Shown here: positions 8,139-36,922 of the stretch, piece after piece | Layout: every line of letters begins with the position of its first letter | Position numbering within the stretch: the first letter of the stretch is position 1 | Origin: a virus | Direction: 5' to 3' (one strand) | IMG/VR virus record: IMGVR_UViG_3300025159_000228 | Span: 1 to 36,922 of that record | Length of the DNA stretch: 36,922 nt | The notes under the pieces: generated by a model | Told to the model about the DNA's origin: nothing | Database searches by the model: none | Seen by the model: the letters and a program-made list of their open reading frames with translations, nothing else | Translations under genes and position numbers: made by a program

Positions 8139-9100
8139 TCCCGCACTGCATGCCCTTTCTCGCGCCACGGCAGGAGGAGTACGTGCGCGACGCGATGCAG
8201 CGCGGCGAGCTGATGCGCGGCGCCTACCTCGACCGGCTCGAGGAGGCGCTGTCGCGTCAGTGCGGCGGGTACGCCGTCTGCGTGTCGAGCGGCACCGCGG
8301 GCCTGTTCCTGGCGATGGAAGCCTCGCGCCGCCCGGTGTACCGCATGCCGGCGCTCACGTATCTGGCGCCCGCGCAAGCCGCACGGCTCTGGGGGGCGTG
8401 GCCGCTCTTCGTGGACATCGACCCGGTGACCTGGGGCGCCGCCGTGCCTGTGGACGTCCAGGTGCATCTCTACGGCATGATCGCGCCAGGGACAGCGCCG
8501 ATCGACGACGCCTGCGAGGCGCTTGGCGCCTGGACCCTGCGCGGACGCTTCGGCGTCCTGAGTTTCAATCAGAATAAGCTCGCCACGGGCGGGGGCGGGG
8601 GCGCCGTACTGTGCGCGGCGAAGTACGAGGCCGACCGGATGCGCCACCTGATCCGCGGCGCTCGCGTGCCTGGGGCGCCGCACATCTGGGACGCGCTCGG
8701 TTGGCCCTTCGAGATGTCGAACCTCCAGGCCGCCGTCATGTGCGCCCAGCTTGAGATGCTGACGCAGACCATCGCGCGCAAGCAGCAGCTCGCGTGGCGC
8801 TATGCGATGGAGCTGCCCGAAATCCCGTGGCAGCCATCGATCACCTACTGGCAGCCGGTCGGGCTCCTGCCCGTGCCCGCCGGGCCCGTAGTCGCCGCCT
8901 GCCAAGCCGCGGGCGTCGAGGCACGACACGTCTGGCCCTGCCTGCCAGACCTGCCGCTCTTCGCCGACTGCCGGCGCGACGGTGACTTTCCGGTGGCGCG
9001 ACACGTGGCGGAGTACGGCATCTCGCTGCCCTGCTCGGTGGACCTGACGGAGAGCGAGCAGGCGACGGTGATCGCTACGGTGCGGAGGGCGCTCGCGTGA
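8135..9100 (+). CDS. DegT/DnrJ/EryC1/StrS sugar aminotransferase
   Basis: A 321-residue PLP enzyme of the type that aminates keto-nucleotide sugars. SSGTAGLFLAME (51-62) is the PLP phosphate site, IDDACEALG (123-131) holds the Asp that pairs with the pyridine nitrogen, and FNQNKLATGGGGG (144-156) holds the Schiff-base Lys148. The C-terminal RHVAEYGISLPCS matches the family end. It is somewhat shorter than the usual 370-390. The GTG start is in a GTGA overlap. With the SDR (4-keto) or Gfo oxidoreductase (3-keto) it would make an amino sugar, a candidate substrate for the formyltransferase at 12271. Confidence 0.87.
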   Translation: MIPHCMPFLAPRQEEYVRDAMQRGELMRGAYLDRLEEALSRQCGGYAVCVSSGTAGLFLAMEASRRPVYRMPALTYLAPAQAARLWGAWPLFVDIDPVTWGAAVPVDVQVHLYGMIAPGTAPIDDACEALGAWTLRGRFGVLSFNQNKLATGGGGGAVLCAAKYEADRMRHLIRGARVPGAPHIWDALGWPFEMSNLQAAVMCAQLEMLTQTIARKQQLAWRYAMELPEIPWQPSITYWQPVGLLPVPAGPVVAACQAAGVEARHVWPCLPDLPLFADCRRDGDFPVARHVAEYGISLPCSVDLTESEQATVIATVRRALA

Positions 9101-9729
9101 TCCTTCGCGACTTCCTCTTCTACGAGGAGCCCGGCGTCACGCTGTACTGCGGGGATTGCCGGGAGGTGCTGCCATTGGTGGATGGTCCAGTAGACATGAT
9201 CTGGACCGATCCTCCGTATCTTTACGAGTTCACCTGGGCGTATCCTTTCGTTGCTGAGCATGGGGCGCGCGTATTGGTTCCCGGGGGGCATTGCTTCGCC
9301 TATGCGGGCCACCGATTCATTTACGACACGTTGCCGAAGATGGTCAAGCACCTCGAGTTTTGGTGGTTAGTGGCTTGCCTGCACGCTGGTGGTAACGCCG
9401 TCATCTGGTCGCGAGGTGTTGGTGCTCACTGGAAACCAATCATCTGGTGCCGCAAGCCGCCTGCCCTGCCTGTATCGCCACCGATTACCGACACGACGCG
9501 CACCGCGAGAGAGAAAGAAGACCACCCTTGGCAGCAGGGCGCGGACGGCGCGGTTTATATCGACAGGCTGATTTCTGCCGGAGCGGTTGTGCTTGACCCG
9601 TTCGCTGGAAGTGGAACGACCCTGCGCATGGCGAAGGATCTCGGCCGCCGCGCCATCGGCATCGAGATCGAGCCGAAATACTGCGAGATCACCGTCAAGC
9701 GTCTGCGCCAAGAGGTGCTGCCGCTGTGA
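9097..9729 (+). CDS. Orphan DNA N6-adenine/N4-cytosine methyltransferase
   Basis: A 210-residue beta-class amino methyltransferase: the catalytic DPPY is at residues 38-41 and the SAM-binding DPFAGSGTT at 167-175, followed by GIEIEPKYCE. DPPY favours adenine N6 methylation, but N4-cytosine is possible. No restriction endonuclease is next to it, so it is an orphan, likely protecting phage DNA from host restriction or regulating it. It is short for the class (about 230-300), with a small target-recognition region between the motifs. It sits in a GTGA-coupled chain between an aminotransferase and a glycosyltransferase. Its composition is slightly less GC-rich, consistent with separate acquisition. 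Confidence 0.87.
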   Translation: MILRDFLFYEEPGVTLYCGDCREVLPLVDGPVDMIWTDPPYLYEFTWAYPFVAEHGARVLVPGGHCFAYAGHRFIYDTLPKMVKHLEFWWLVACLHAGGNAVIWSRGVGAHWKPIIWCRKPPALPVSPPITDTTRTAREKEDHPWQQGADGAVYIDRLISAGAVVLDPFAGSGTTLRMAKDLGRRAIGIEIEPKYCEITVKRLRQEVLPL

Positions 9730-10673: not shown

Positions 10674-10859
10674 GGAAGGGCCGGACAGGGGCGAGGAATG
10701 GTATGGCAAGGCCGGGCTGGATCAGGCTCGGCGCGGCGTGGCGCGATGGGGCACGGCCTGGCGAGGCAAGGCTGGGCGTGGCAAGGCAAGGAGTGGCTCG
10801 GCTGGGCCCGGCCTGGCCGGGTTAGGCGCGGTTCGGTGTGCTCGGGTTTGGCATGGCAT
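10674..10859 (+). repeat. Pentanucleotide-period array 1 (GGNNN repeated)
   Basis: The intergenic stretch upstream of the 200-aa gene is built of 5-nt units starting with GG. From 10690 every unit keeps phase (34 units to 10859); three more units at 10674-10688 lie one base out of phase. In the 31 units from 10705, position 1 is G in all, position 2 is G in 28 and position 3 is C in 23; the last two positions vary freely. The period is not a multiple of three, so it is not a coding repeat. The array ends directly before the AAGGAG ribosome site of the next gene. Confidence 0.9.
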
Positions 10860-32780: not shown

Positions 32781-33106
32781 TGCACTTTCACGTTGGTGTC
32801 CGCGCTCTGGCGGATGAAGCGCGCCTTGCTGGCGGGGCGCACATAGGCGAAGTCGCCCGCGTTGAGCGCGAAGTCGTTGCTGTCAGGCGTCGCCGTCGGC
32901 GAGTGCAGGCTCAGGTAGACGCCGTTATCCACAACGTAGAACAGCGCGCCATCTCGGTTGCCGTCGCCGCAGAGGTCCGCGGTGACCCCCAGCGCCGTGG
33001 TGCTCACGGTCAAGCTCTCCTCGCTCGACGTCGGGACGCCCGGCGTGGCGATCTGCGCCCCCGCGGGCGCCGCGAGCAGCAGCAGCAGGACGATCAGTCG
33101 GCTCAT
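32765..33106 (-). CDS. Exported small beta-rich protein (113 aa)
   Basis: A 113-residue protein with a clear signal peptide (MSRLIVLLLLLAAPAGAQ, cleavage likely after A-G-A). The mature part is beta-rich, with NGVYLSLHSPTATPDSNDFALNAGDFAYVRP and two Cys (one in VTADLCGDGN and one near the end) that could form a disulphide in the periplasm. Coupled by ATGA to the conserved small gene upstream. It precedes the fibre-like gene. Whether it is a virion or host-envelope protein is unknown. Confidence 0.65.
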   Translation of the reverse strand: MSRLIVLLLLLAAPAGAQIATPGVPTSSEESLTVSTTALGVTADLCGDGNRDGALFYVVDNGVYLSLHSPTATPDSNDFALNAGDFAYVRPASKARFIRQSADTNVKVQCVSQ

Positions 33107-33264
33107 CGCTCCCCCCGCAGGATCGCGCCCTTGCGCGGTGTCTGGACGTGCGTGTAGTCCGCGAGCTGCGCCATGCTCATCCCCGTCTTCGTGCGTTTGC
33201 CGTGCTTCGCCCTCGTCATCTCGGCCATCATGAAGCGGCGCTGGCGCTCACTGACGGATGGCAT
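33103..33264 (-). CDS. Small conserved phage protein with SERQRRFM motif (53 aa)
   Basis: A 53-residue ORF that lies partly inside the 3' end of the gene before it (17-nt overlap). The sequence MPSVSERQRRFMMAEMTRAKHG... TKTGMSMAQLADY fits a recurrent phage protein pattern (S-x-x-Q-R-R-F-M plus R-A-K-x-G-K and a Gly-Met-Ser-x-x-Q-L end). I chose ATG 33264, with GAGG 9 nt upstream; ATG 33270 is too close to the RBS. Function unknown; usually encoded near terminase or portal. Confidence 0.7.
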   Translation of the reverse strand: MPSVSERQRRFMMAEMTRAKHGKRTKTGMSMAQLADYTHVQTPRKGAILRGER

Positions 33265-33403
33265 CAGCATGATCCTCGGCGAGCACAGCGCCGTAGAAGA
33301 TCCTCACCGAATCATAATCACGGTCGAGAATCCACTCGGGTTGATTCTGCAACCAGCGGAGATATGCCTGCGGCGGATTGCCGCTTGGCCATCGCGTGTT
33401 CAT
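33248..33403 (-). CDS. Small hypothetical protein after TerL (51 aa)
   Basis: A 51-residue ORF starting 2 nt after the terminase large subunit stop, with GGGAGG 7-8 nt upstream of its ATG inside the terL end. Begins MNTRWPSGNPPQAYLRWLQNQPEW and is Trp/Arg-rich with a C-terminal acidic-to-basic change. No family recognised. Its end overlaps the next gene by 17 nt. Confidence 0.6.
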   Translation of the reverse strand: MNTRWPSGNPPQAYLRWLQNQPEWILDRDYDSVRIFYGAVLAEDHADAIRQ

Positions 33404-33405
33404 GT

Positions 33406-34773
33406 TCAGCGCCTCCCGTGCAGGTGTTCGTACACGTCGAAGCTCGTCTTCGCGGGCTTCGGACGCGGCCGGCTCACGCCGTCTTGCATCGCCCACGCCG
33501 CAGTGCGTGAGGGCTGCTCGTCGCGCACCGTGATCGCGAGGTAGCGGAAGGCGTCGGCGCCGTGCGAGGCCCAGTCGTGGAGGGGCTTGTCCTTCCAGTC
33601 CTGGCGCTTGTCGTCCCACTCCTGGCGGTACTGCGCGAGCGCGTCGATCAGGCGCGCGCACTTCGTCTCGTCGAACCAGCAGCGGGCGAAGAGGCGGCGC
33701 GCCTGGGCGATCGAGGCCAGCACGTCGGCCTGCCCGAGCACGGTCACGGGGCGCAAGCCGAGCTGCTGCGCCTGCTGCGCGAGCGTGCGCCCCTCGGCCG
33801 CTTGCTGCGCGTGGCCTGCGTCGTGCGGCAGGTGATGGCGCCCGTAGAGGTACGGCCGGCGCGCCAGTTCGCGCACGTAGTACTCGATGCCCTCGAGCGA
33901 GGACTCCACGTAGTCGATCACGTGCAACTCGCGCCCGAGCTGCTGCACGAAGATGATCGCCGTGGCATCGCTCCACCCGAGGTCCCAGAACGTGTTGACG
34001 GGCACCGCGGGCTCCCACGACACGCTCTTGATGCGCCCCTCGGCGCGCGCCGCTTCGAGCTGCCGGGCGAAGTAGGCGCCCTTGAGCGCGGCTTCCCACG
34101 AGCACTCGTACTCCTGCGCGAACTCGTCGGGGCCGATCTGCGTGCGCGCCAACTCCACCTCGGCGTGCGCCGCCTCGCCCTCGAGATTGCCGATCACGCC
34201 GCTGTCCGAGAAGCGATACGTCGTGCAGTACCACTCCGGATCGCGGTGGCGCGCGTGGTACAGCGTGTGGAAGTGGTTGCGCCCCTTCGGGGTGCCGATG
34301 AAGAGCGCGAAGCCGCGCTTGGCCGCGAGGGCGGGGCGCACGACCTGATCCCACGCCGCCGGGTCCATCTGCGCGTACTCGTCGAGCACCACGCCGTCCA
34401 GATGCATGCCGCGGAGCGCATCGTAGTCGTCGGCGCCGAGGAGCTTGACGAACGCGCCGTTCGGAAAGTCCGCGCGCAACTCGCTCTCGTTCACCCGCAC
34501 GGGCGGCGCAGGCACGGCGAGCTTGAGCGTCTTCCAGCTCGCGGCCTTCGCCTGCTTGTAGAACGGCGCCATGTAGGCGTACTCGCCCTGCGGCTTCTCG
34601 GTCGCGGCCTTGACGAGGAGATTCACGGCGAGGGTGGTCTTGCCGAGTCCTCGGTGGCAGACCAGGACGGAAAACCGTTTCCGGGCGAGCCGGTCGAGGA
34701 GATAGCGCTGGGCGCCGTTGGGTCGAAATCGGACAGGCTGCGCGGCGGCGTCGGCGTCGCGCTCAGGTCCCAC
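33406..34773 (-). CDS. terL: Terminase large subunit
   Basis: A 455-residue protein with the ATPase plus nuclease architecture. RFRPNGAQRYLLD precedes the Walker A-like CHRGLGKTT (39-47); Walker B and catalytic residue are VVLDEYAQMD (128-137). The C-terminal RNase H-like nuclease has NTFWDLGWSDATAI, YVESSLEGIEYY and HGADAFRYL, with its metal-binding aspartates. It drives DNA packaging into the prohead. I start it at GTG 34773 because no ATG lies nearer to the conserved N-terminus; the frame opens further upstream, overlapping the TerS frame. RGLGKTT instead of the usual G-x-x-x-x-G-K-T is normal for this group. Confidence 0.88.
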   Translation of the reverse strand: MGPERDADAAAQPVRFRPNGAQRYLLDRLARKRFSVLVCHRGLGKTTLAVNLLVKAATEKPQGEYAYMAPFYKQAKAASWKTLKLAVPAPPVRVNESELRADFPNGAFVKLLGADDYDALRGMHLDGVVLDEYAQMDPAAWDQVVRPALAAKRGFALFIGTPKGRNHFHTLYHARHRDPEWYCTTYRFSDSGVIGNLEGEAAHAEVELARTQIGPDEFAQEYECSWEAALKGAYFARQLEAARAEGRIKSVSWEPAVPVNTFWDLGWSDATAIIFVQQLGRELHVIDYVESSLEGIEYYVRELARRPYLYGRHHLPHDAGHAQQAAEGRTLAQQAQQLGLRPVTVLGQADVLASIAQARRLFARCWFDETKCARLIDALAQYRQEWDDKRQDWKDKPLHDWASHGADAFRYLAITVRDEQPSRTAAWAMQDGVSRPRPKPAKTSFDVYEHLHGRR

Positions 34774-35000
34774 ACGATCAGCGTCGGCCCCTGCGTCGTG
34801 ATCTGCACGCTGTCCTTCGGCACCGGGTCCGTGCGCTTCAGAACCTGCTCGGTGGCCCATTGCGCTTTCGCGTCATTCCGTGAATGCAGCCACGTCTCGA
34901 GATTTTCCGTTGCGCGCACGCGCATGCGTTTCCAGCGAGTCCCGATCGGGTCGAGCATTTCTTCGCGCGTCGGCACGAGCGCTCGCGGAGAGGACGCCAT
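34623..35000 (-). CDS. terS: Terminase small subunit candidate
   Basis: A 125-residue ORF immediately before the terminase large gene, in the usual place of TerS. It has RATENLETWLHSRNDAKAQWATEQVLKRTDPVPKDSVQITTQGP: two helices, then the D-P-V-P-K-x-x-V linker seen before the TerS C-terminal segment. The 3' 150 nt overlap the terL start in another frame and encode a Ser/Pro-rich tail, so the real protein could be shorter. I chose ATG 35000 over the TTG near 35039. A 14-nt repeat array lies between it and the upstream gene and may be its binding site. TerS is divergent, so this rests on position and linker pattern. Confidence 0.6.
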   Translation of the reverse strand: MASSPRALVPTREEMLDPIGTRWKRMRVRATENLETWLHSRNDAKAQWATEQVLKRTDPVPKDSVQITTQGPTLIVWDLSATPTPPRSLSDFDPTAPSAISSTGSPGNGFPSWSATEDSARPPSP

Positions 35001-35030
35001 ACACGACGCACACGTAGCGCGCGCCGGCAA

Positions 35031-35086
35031 CAGCGTCAAGAGCGAGGCGTCAACAGGCAGGCGTCAACAGCGAGCGATCAACACTC
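35031..35086. repeat. Four tandem 14-nt direct repeats before terS
   Basis: Units at 35031-35044, 35045-35058, 35059-35072 and 35073-35086 align end to end on the + strand; the common core is GTCAA(C/G)A with flanking purine-rich ends, and units 2 and 3 share the 12-mer AGGCGTCAACAG. They fill most of the gap between the small HTH gene and terS. The regular 14-nt spacing points to a protein-binding iteron: packaging (pac/cos) site bound by TerS, or a replication/partition origin. Confidence 0.75.
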
Positions 35087-35345
35087 AGGGGCGGAAAAAA
35101 AACACGCGCTCCAGCAGGGCCGCGTAATCCTGTCGGATGAGCCGATAGCGGCGCGCGGCATTGACTCGGTGGGTCATGACTTGGTCCGGATGCGGCGCTC
35201 GCCCTTCGCGGCGCGCCCGCATGGCCCACTTGCGCACGGTCTGCTCCTTGCGCCCCCAGAGCCGCGCGAGGTCGGCATACGTGTACCACACGTGCGGAGC
35301 GGCGGGCAGGCGGAAGCTCACGGCCAGGATACAGGTGTCGCTCAC
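35085..35345 (-). CDS. Small HTH DNA-binding protein
   Basis: An 86-residue protein with one helix-turn-helix region: YTYADLARLWGRKEQTVRKWAMRARREG, similar to MerR/excisionase-type winged helices, followed by a basic helix. It is coupled by GTGA to the gene before it and ends at the start of the 14-nt repeats, so it or TerS may bind these. It could regulate the virion operon or participate in packaging. A candidate terminase-related or early regulator; no closer identity. Confidence 0.6.
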   Translation of the reverse strand: MSDTCILAVSFRLPAAPHVWYTYADLARLWGRKEQTVRKWAMRARREGRAPHPDQVMTHRVNAARRYRLIRQDYAALLERVFFFRP

Positions 35346-35947
35346 GACGGCGGCTGCAGTCCTGCCGTGCGCAAGAGATTGAGCGCGGCGCGCTTCTTCG
35401 CCTCATGCTGCTCGAGCGCCGCCGCCGCATCCAATGCGGCGGGCGGCGGCGCGTTCCTATCTAGGTTCTCTTCGAGAATCTTCTTTATGGGATTGGGAGG
35501 GGAGGGGGGCATACCAGAGGGGGTAGCACGTGCTTTAGCATCTGCCATAGCTTTTGCTATGCCACCTGCTTGACCTGCCTTTGCTTTCTTTTCACGGAGT
35601 TCCTTGAGTTGGGCCTTGCTTGGGTTGTATTCGAGAAAGTCGTGGACGACATATCCGCGCCGGTTTTTTTCTAGCAAACCGCTAGCACACAAGGCGTCGA
35701 TGAGCAGCGAGGCGTCGATGTCGTCGCCCACTTCGAAGAGGCCAGGCACCCCCCCGGTGGCCACACCGATGTGCTGGAACGGCCAGAGACGCTTCAGTTG
35801 TTCCCGGGAGATGTGCCCATCAGTCAGATAGCGCATGCAGTAGCACGTCGCGGAAAACCAGAGCCACCCGGCCAGTGGCGCCAGATTGCCGAGTTGCGTG
35901 AACTTCGGATGATCCGGCGTCAGGTCCTCAAAACGAACCCATGTCAC
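35342..35947 (-). CDS. Winged-helix-like phage protein, replication initiator/DnaD-like candidate
   Basis: A 201-residue protein. The first 110 residues look like a winged-helix pair (RFEDLTPDHPKFTQLG, LSREQ-type helix in HISREQLKRLWPF, then SLLIDALCASGLLEKNRRGYVVHDFLEYNPSKAQLKELREKKAKAGQAGG). The VHDFLEYNPS segment followed by a basic helix is common to phage replisome organiser/DnaD-like proteins. The rest is a Pro/Ala linker and a C-terminal helix (EQHEAKKRAALNLLRTAG). GTG 35947 is chosen because of the RBS AGGTGGA directly upstream, part of a hairpin; the frame opens earlier. First gene of the leftward operon. Confidence 0.65.
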   Translation of the reverse strand: MTWVRFEDLTPDHPKFTQLGNLAPLAGWLWFSATCYCMRYLTDGHISREQLKRLWPFQHIGVATGGVPGLFEVGDDIDASLLIDALCASGLLEKNRRGYVVHDFLEYNPSKAQLKELREKKAKAGQAGGIAKAMADAKARATPSGMPPSPPNPIKKILEENLDRNAPPPAALDAAAALEQHEAKKRAALNLLRTAGLQPPS

Positions 35948-36095
35948 TGCTCCACCTCCCCTAAGGTGGAGGGCGACGCCCGTGTAGGGGCACGAGCGCC
36001 GCCCTCGAGCGCACTGCACCGTCCCGCAGGAGGACGCGCCGAGTCTCGCATGATCGTGGTTGCGCGCGCAAGCGGAATGTGCTACCCGAAGGCTC
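35948..36095. promoter_or_regulatory. Divergent intergenic region between virion operon and lysis-like cassette
   Basis: The only divergent gap in the window. Beside the hairpin at 35951-35970 it holds a perfect 12-bp palindrome, TTGCGCGCGCAA (36060-36071), 24 nt before the ATG at 36096, a possible operator. Promoters for both directions must lie near here, but no strong -35/-10 pair could be identified by eye. Confidence 0.5.
35951..35970 (-). promoter_or_regulatory. Hairpin sequestering the ribosome site of the DnaD-like gene
   Basis: A perfect 7-bp inverted repeat with a 6-nt loop (TCCACCT and AGGTGGA) lies 3 nt before the GTG start. In the transcript the 3' arm is the Shine-Dalgarno AGGTGGA itself, so the hairpin would mask it. 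This suggests translational control of the operon's first gene. No U-run follows, arguing against a terminator. Confidence 0.6.
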
Positions 36096-36422
36096 ATGGC
36101 GTTCCACTTCAAGCCTGAAGTCGGAATGAGCGCGGGCCTAGCCGCCGCGGTGCTCGTCCAGGTCGCGACCGAGGTCTTCGACCGCTACCACGCCGAGTGC
36201 TGGCTGACGAGCGCCAACGACGGCACGCACCGCGCCGACTCGTTCCACTATCGCGATCTGGCGTGGGACCTCCGCACGCAGCACCTGAAGCCACTCGACA
36301 AGCGCACCTTAGTGCGCGAGCTGCGCCAGCGCCTCCTGCCGCAGTTCGAGGTCATCTTCGAGGACGAGGGTGGTCCGAACGAGCACGTGCACGTGGAGTA
36401 TGACACCGGGAGGCTCCCATGA
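36096..36422 (+). CDS. M15-type zinc peptidase, endolysin candidate
   Basis: A 108-residue protein with the Zn-binding pattern of small phage M15 peptidases: DGTHRADSFHYRDLAWDLRT (H-x(6)-D, two zinc ligands) and NEHVHVEYD (second His pair) near the C-terminus. M15 enzymes cut the peptide stem of peptidoglycan. A plausible endolysin, as it stands first in a cassette followed by a holin-like and a lipoprotein gene; a virion-borne hydrolase is the alternative. The short length (108) is at the lower limit for the family. Weak RBS (AAGG) 4 nt before ATG. Confidence 0.72.
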   Translation: MAFHFKPEVGMSAGLAAAVLVQVATEVFDRYHAECWLTSANDGTHRADSFHYRDLAWDLRTQHLKPLDKRTLVRELRQRLLPQFEVIFEDEGGPNEHVHVEYDTGRLP

Positions 36423-36598
36423 TCGACGCGCTCGAAAAGGCGACCCGACCGTTGGTCACCCTCGCCCTGACGGCCGCCCTGATCTACGGCTTCCTGCTCG
36501 ACAAGGTGGGCGCCGAGGCGTTCCTCGGGATCGTCGGCGGCGTCATCGGTTTCTGGTTCAGCCAGCGCCAGCTGGCCAAGGAGGCGCCCAAGCCATGA
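36419..36598 (+). CDS. Small two-helix membrane protein, holin candidate
   Basis: A 59-residue protein overlapping the peptidase gene by ATGA. Two hydrophobic segments (residues 12-29 and 34-47: LVTLALTAALIYGFLLDKV and AFLGIVGGVIGFWFSQR) with a basic C-terminus give a holin-like topology. The GGVIGFWF-S-x-R ending is common in small phage membrane proteins placed beside lysis genes. ATGA overlap to the lipoprotein gene supports a lysis operon. Confidence 0.65.
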   Translation: MIDALEKATRPLVTLALTAALIYGFLLDKVGAEAFLGIVGGVIGFWFSQRQLAKEAPKP

Positions 36599-36843
36599 TG
36601 ACGCGGTGGCTCCCACTCATGCTCCTGCTCCTCACCACCGGCTGCACCTCCGCCCTCGCCGGCATGTCCCCAGAGCAACTCGCGGCGCTCGCCAAGGACA
36701 AGAACGCCAGCGTGACCTGCTTCTCGGGCGTCTACGCGGGCGCCAAGGTCAACATGCTGTTCCTCACGGCCGATAAAGGTGTCCCCGCAGGCGTCACAAT
36801 CGACGACGGGTGCAAGGCCGCCTTCACCTCCCCGCCCAAGTAG
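36595..36843 (+). CDS. Small lipoprotein, outer-membrane spanin-like position
   Basis: An 82-residue protein with a lipoprotein signal: MMTRWLPLMLLLLTTGCTSALAG, with the lipobox L-T-T-G-C. The mature part has two more Cys (TCFSGVY and DDGCKAAF) that could pair, and a repeated G-V-x-A motif. In phages a lipoprotein after a holin is usually an o-spanin or a superinfection-exclusion lipoprotein. The start ATG 36595 lies in the ATGA overlap; ATG 36598 is in the same frame. No match to a family by eye. Confidence 0.65.
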   Translation: MMTRWLPLMLLLLTTGCTSALAGMSPEQLAALAKDKNASVTCFSGVYAGAKVNMLFLTADKGVPAGVTIDDGCKAAFTSPPK

Positions 36844-36865
36844 CGCCTGGCCATTCTGGCAGGCG
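36844..36865 (+). terminator. Possible terminator hairpin after the lipoprotein gene
   Basis: A 6-bp inverted repeat (CGCCTG and CAGGCG) separated by a 10-nt loop immediately follows the TAG stop. A short AT-rich stretch (ATTTGTCCC) comes next but is not a proper U-run. The last 57 nt of the window hold nothing else that I can identify. Confidence 0.4.
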
Positions 36866-36922
36866 ATTTGTCCCAAAAGCGACGAAACGCGGCAGTGGTC
36901 GGAGACTGCGCAGCGCGGAAGT

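Follow-up and report, generated by a model that had tools for sequence, protein, structure and literature searches.

A four-unit tandem repeat between a small HTH gene and terS in an uncultured short-tailed phage, a candidate operator of the late genes

The genome of an uncultured short-tailed phage carries a tandem array of four 14-nt units between a small HTH gene and terS, and short arrays were found to accompany separate small HTH genes before terS at other loci. The reading we favour, at a little short of an even chance, is that the adjacent HTH protein uses the array as its operator, through which the late operon would be switched. Copies of the protein would lie side by side and head to tail on the four direct repeats, along a stretch that would begin at the end of the protein's own gene, and their binding would switch transcription of the terS-terL-portal-capsid operon, with the protein acting most likely as a late-gene activator rather than as a repressor. 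The main rival is a split small terminase, while TerS-bound pac/cos sites and replication iterons are less likely. If this is right, a small HTH gene followed by a few 10-14-nt tandem units and terS would be a simple sequence rule by which a switch of the late genes, or else a split module for packaging recognition, could be found in uncultured phages beyond the Gram-positive model systems. The view that "repeats next to terS are pac" would then become a testable choice between regulation and packaging.

Gene neighbourhood

The window (the whole stretch of DNA analysed, 36,922 bp) is a linear record without end repeats, in which the genes of interest run leftward in the order replication initiation-like, small HTH, terS, terL and portal (Table 1). 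The longest terL ORF reaches 238 nt into terS (34623-34860), and an overlap is found here in L097 and L005 too. For most relatives, homology to TerL sets in near residue 43, so that terL probably starts further downstream than this ORF does. A DNA methyltransferase gene is located at 9097-9729 (PHROG 67, E 1e-34).

Table 1. Features of the window around the repeat array.
Feature	Position	Strand	Remarks
Tandem array, four 14-nt units	35033..35088	(-)	unit 4 overlaps the HTH gene stop codon
Possible degenerate fifth copy, GTTGCCGGCGCGCG	35018..35031	(-)	tentative; read from the sequence, no statistics
Replication initiation (DnaD/Rep-like) gene	35342..35947	(-)	PHROG 2447, E 1.5e-20; upstream of the HTH gene
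Small HTH protein gene, 86 aa, GTG start	35085..35345	(-)	sub-threshold HTH matches; proposed array binder
terS, 125 aa	34623..35000	(-)	assigned by position; C-terminal motif GPTLIVWD common to relatives
terL, 484 aa as longest ORF	33406..34860	(-)	PF03237, E 5e-11; PHROG 2
Portal gene	31263-29569	leftward	PF12236

Structure of the array

In its best register (35033-35088) the array reads GCGTCAAGAGCGAG / GCGTCAACAGGCAG / GCGTCAACAGCGAG / CGATCAACACTCAG. A sequence-only reading of this DNA had described four abutting 14-nt units, which are present, but had placed them at 35031-35086, 2 nt off. Units 1 and 3 are identical at 13/14 positions, units 2 and 3 at 12/14 and units 1 and 2 at 11/14; unit 4 matches units 1, 2 and 3 at 7/14, 9/14 and 8/14 positions, respectively. 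The 12-mer reported as common to two units was confirmed in the sequence (AGGCGTCAACAG), and the reported GTCAA core is found in three units, unit 4 having ATCAA instead. On the minus strand, which is the gene direction, the core reads TTGAC three times and TTGAT once, and each unit starts with a TGTTGAC-like sequence. The described placement between the small HTH gene and terS also holds: the HTH stop codon (35087-35085) lies inside unit 4, and the 84 bp from there to the terS ATG (35000) are mostly filled by the four head-to-tail units. Around the terS start codon there is a GC-rich inverted repeat (34993-35038); as RNA it folds into a long hairpin that contains the AUG (z of -2.4 for RNA folding of the 111-nt gap region), and it could mask the start codon or be part of a control region.

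The lag-14 self-match of the array is 31/42. Of 200 genomes simulated per Markov order, 0 (order 1), 2 (order 2) and 3 (order 5) reached this value at any lag between 6 and 40, and none did so at lag 14. Local simulations of 120 bp reached it in 2 of 5000 cases. The pattern TTGAY-N9-TTGAY occurs three times in the window against an expectation of 0.05, all within the array, and TRF on the window reported a 14-nt x 3.6 repeat (score 65) and a 28-nt x 2.0 repeat (score 77), the latter being the top score among 36 rows. The array is unique within the genome, and its origin by chance is unlikely. The sole other spot of the window with equal short-lag self-match, 10730-10797, lies within overlapping ORFs.

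Replication slippage in a short untranslated gap could also leave an array, in this case a non-functional one, but we regard this as quite improbable. It would agree with the occurrence of an equally strong short-lag repeat elsewhere in the window, and with an array sequence that is not conserved beyond near-identical contigs; against it, arrays recur at the same place in unrelated sequences, and unit 4 has diverged yet stays in register. What is supported is an array of the protein-binding type.

Recurrence of the HTH-array-terS layout

Searches for close relatives with TerS, HTH and Rep yielded three contigs that match the window at over 99.9% identity and in which the stretch 35001-35100 is unchanged. 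Five more distant loci were also obtained in the Rep search, the best of which (L089, 56% identical) has a different terminase downstream, indicating that the Rep gene travels with different packaging modules. At L089:1138-1659, after this Rep gene, a lookalike of the lambda Nu1-type small terminase was seen by eye. A pattern search for the array in viral contigs returned seven stretches, the three near-identical contigs and four others that were dropped, being two-unit matches only in unlike sequence. Beyond the near-identical contigs, TerL relatives are at most 59% identical.

Repeat arrays next to terS had been called typical in the sequence-only reading. A survey of 80 TerL relatives did not bear this out, as tandem repeats before terS showed no general enrichment (8/80 at p<0.05, mean p 0.51). 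The search of related phages that it had proposed gave a divided result: the array sequence was absent outside the near-identical contigs, but the layout was found, with periods of 10-14. A small (w)HTH gene of its own directly precedes terS at eight loci, six of which have a short tandem array (period 10-14, p<0.01) in that spot, while an array at p<0.01 was detected in 4/63 comparison loci, which are other terS-upstream regions (Fisher, 3.7e-5). Without the window, which was the starting point of the comparison, and L075, which was noticed through its array, the count is 4/6 (Fisher, 0.0011); without L177 as well, whose HTH gene was assigned by eye (neither Pfam at E<=3 nor PHROGs at E<=0.1 gave a family), it is 3/5 (Fisher, 0.0064). 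Among the four comparison positives only L008 has a period <=14 (one <20), the short-period cut having been chosen post hoc.

As to the make-up of these groups, the HTH status of L161 comes from PHROG 66 (E 0.0018) and that of the other loci mostly from sub-threshold matches. Of the 36 upstream small ORFs in group B, 26 were searched against Pfam and the remainder were judged by eye. At L072, L116 and L159 the ORF taken as upstream resembles a real TerS, so that TerS is misplaced there. Candidates below 80 aa (including L132, with an 11-nt x 2 repeat), an oxygenase-like ORF type and near-duplicates were dropped before the count. The count includes doubtful loci of the L180 type but neither L193 nor any locus whose upstream DNA was too short, which left 63 scored.

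The layout takes several forms. In L097, whose portal and TerL are 67% and 56% identical to those of the window, a small HTH gene is followed by a gap that contains a 13-nt x 2 repeat and then by a window-like TerS. In L075, a Syntrophaceae MAG contig with a 37% identical TerL, the order is Rep-like gene (by eye), small HTH gene, 13-nt x 4.5 array, TerS and TerL. Arrays before terS were also found in L177 (11-nt x 3) and L178 (10-nt), both from the TerS search, and in L192 (10-nt), from the profile search. Two of the eight HTH-preceded loci are without a significant array, namely L005 (HTH, gap, TerS and TerL, with a weak 13-nt repeat, p 0.16) and L161 (p 0.22), which counts against the operator reading. 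The repeat sequences of the HTH-array-terS loci have nothing in common, as expected because binding sites co-evolve with the binding protein. In L080 (Rhodoferax phage P26218), the gap before a terS-like gene (33146-33653) is richer in repeats than any other part of the genome; they are of the CTGCTACAACTGCTAC type and occur in both orientations.

The HTH protein as the candidate binder

Since the arrays associate with a separate HTH gene, the HTH protein is the first candidate binder. The sequence-only reading had named the adjacent HTH product as one of several possible binders, and the 6/8 against 4/63 count makes it the best one. In the window, its matches to HTH families are sub-threshold: best E 4.6e-4 in Pfam, E 3e-4 to 9e-3 in PHROGs (DNA binding, MerR-like and excisionase/regulator), and E 0.037 between this protein (P0001) and HTH_17, under the family cut-off. 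The HTH protein of L178 is above that cut-off (27.5 bits against 27), and the window protein could be aligned with its counterparts from L005 and L097. Its structure model is of low confidence, which, together with the sub-threshold matches, counts against the operator reading. Sequence searches of the PDB with the HTH and TerS profiles gave nothing useful.

A scan of 33000-36922 for sigma-70-like promoters found 0 sites, which is a further point against an operator. The nearest fit by eye is TTGACG-N17-TACGTG, in which TTGACG comes from the terS-proximal unit and the second hexamer (-10) is poor. In L021 and L022 two TTGACA boxes 17 nt apart and a -10 are found directly before terS, so that for the wider group a promoter in this position is plausible.

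The gene for Ltr of Staphylococcus phage 13 has four direct repeats at its 3' end, which are required for the late promoter ahead of terS-terL, and Alt of Lactococcus phage TP901-1 binds four imperfect direct repeats (PMC13123087). The window is similar to these systems in having a small HTH gene directly upstream of a late operon with terS-terL and, as for Ltr, an array of four units that reaches the stop codon of its putative regulator gene. It differs from Ltr and Alt in that its HTH protein had no match to the RinA, ArpU or Ltr families in Pfam, PHROGs and NCBIfam, no promoter was recognised downstream of the repeats, and the array abuts terS itself. In the open-access library searched for work on terS-adjacent repeats or separate HTH partners, no title or abstract with this layout was found, Gram-positive Ltr excepted.

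The HTH_17/MerR-like proteins BldC and RdfS are examples of a head-to-tail arrangement on DNA, by binding or in a model (PMC5859096, PMC11963761). The HTH proteins of several of our loci are of the same broad kind as those of RDF/Xis and BldC, and likewise have several head-to-tail sites nearby. Unlike the spacing of the filament-forming RDF/Xis and BldC-type proteins, which runs from ~9 bp to one helical turn, the period in the window is 14 nt; that this is not one helical turn counts against the operator reading. Another difference from RDF/Xis is that no integrase was established beside the window gene, whereas L005 has one upstream. Around the end of that integrase gene (PF00589), GGGGTCAGT-like repeats were seen by eye (L005:2938-3128), possibly integrase arm sites.

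Domain content of TerS and the packaging alternatives

The window TerS had no match in the family databases and no DNA-binding domain was recognised in it. Its single-sequence model (pLDDT 63) consists of one long helix and a beta hairpin with no HTH, so that an N-terminal HTH is apparently missing. This weakens the proposal of the sequence-only reading that TerS binds the array, in which TerL would cut nearby, as at pac/cos sites. The array does lie directly before terS, a place that fits SPP1-like pac regions: in SPP1, pac contains direct repeats and covers promoters together with the beginning of the TerS gene (PMC4737164, PMC6316719), and the closeness of the repeats to terS is shared with SPP1/SF6 pac and lambda cosB. 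Unlike in those systems, however, the TerS of the window is without a recognised DNA-binding domain, in so far as a model of this kind can be relied on. Relatives show no general excess of arrays before terS either, and the box repeats of SF6/SPP1 hardly affected binding by the DNA-binding domain. We therefore consider TerS-bound pac/cos improbable.

A split small terminase, in which TerS has lost its DNA-binding domain and the HTH protein together with the TerS core marks the packaging start, is unlikely but deserves more weight. It would account for a window TerS without a family and a model without HTH. In L177 and L178, Terminase_2 matches TerS only over positions 59-128 and 65-127 of 141, in the second half, while the TerS proteins of L179 and L181, where no upstream HTH gene was seen by reading, match at full length (2-138 and 1-139); the half match suggests that TerS in L177 and L178 has handed DNA recognition to its neighbour. 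A profile of the three window-type TerS proteins could be aligned with the full-length L028 TerS, at its C-terminal end. Comparison of the window-type TerS profile with a set of Terminase_2-type TerS found nothing. There is also a precedent in PICI Rpp, a protein distinct from TerS that forms a pair with it and alters the choice of packaged DNA (PMC9026076). The window resembles that pair in encoding a separate small, predicted DNA-binding partner beside a putative packaging site; Rpp differs in being satellite-derived and in redirecting a complete TerS.

Against a split terminase, L192 has the HTH gene and the array beside a full-length TerS with its own N-terminal domain. A regulator fits better than a missing terminase domain for this reason. 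In addition, the TerS model of the window is a single-sequence prediction, and L023 and L006 have a DUF5681-type TerS without a recognised HTH and no HTH gene-array layout in the upstream DNA examined. In wider hunts for HTH-less TerS, matches were obtained in 10/395 and 1/398 genomes with no new HTH-less one recognised, and a hunt in phage records gave 0. PF03592 was matched in 15/247 genomes, of which two new loci (L199 and L200) were taken as controls; the remainder were duplicates, fragments or proteins that visual inspection did not place as TerS, and were dropped. A two-protein TerS, with the HTH protein recognising a fast-diverging array and TerS giving the ring and the contact with TerL, could have arisen repeatedly with different HTH types and repeats, although this is rather doubtful.

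Replication alternative

The least probable reading is that the units are replication iterons bound by the Rep/DnaD-like or the HTH protein. The rep gene is two genes upstream of terS, an AT-rich island (35475-35700, GC 0.51-0.53 against ~0.68) is found in the vicinity, and SPP1 origins consist of direct repeats and an AT-rich region. However, the island lies within rep, ~400 bp from the array, the GC skew has no clear switch at the array, and similar arrays precede terS in L177 and L192, where a neighbouring rep gene is not established. The possibility of iterons, also raised by the sequence-only reading, is further weakened by tandem repeats inside the rep gene itself in three Rep-bearing relatives (L092, L093 and L075). 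In two of them, these are 12-nt repeats inside window-related replication-initiation genes (L092:3353-3396 and L093:3367-3401), which could be origin iterons. The island inside the replication gene of the window could itself be an element at which an origin unwinds. L064 and L066, two of the three near-identical contigs, stop exactly at window position 35720, where an 11-nt direct repeat, AGGCGTCGATG (35692-35720), ends with its second copy; this could be either an assembly break or a real DNA end.
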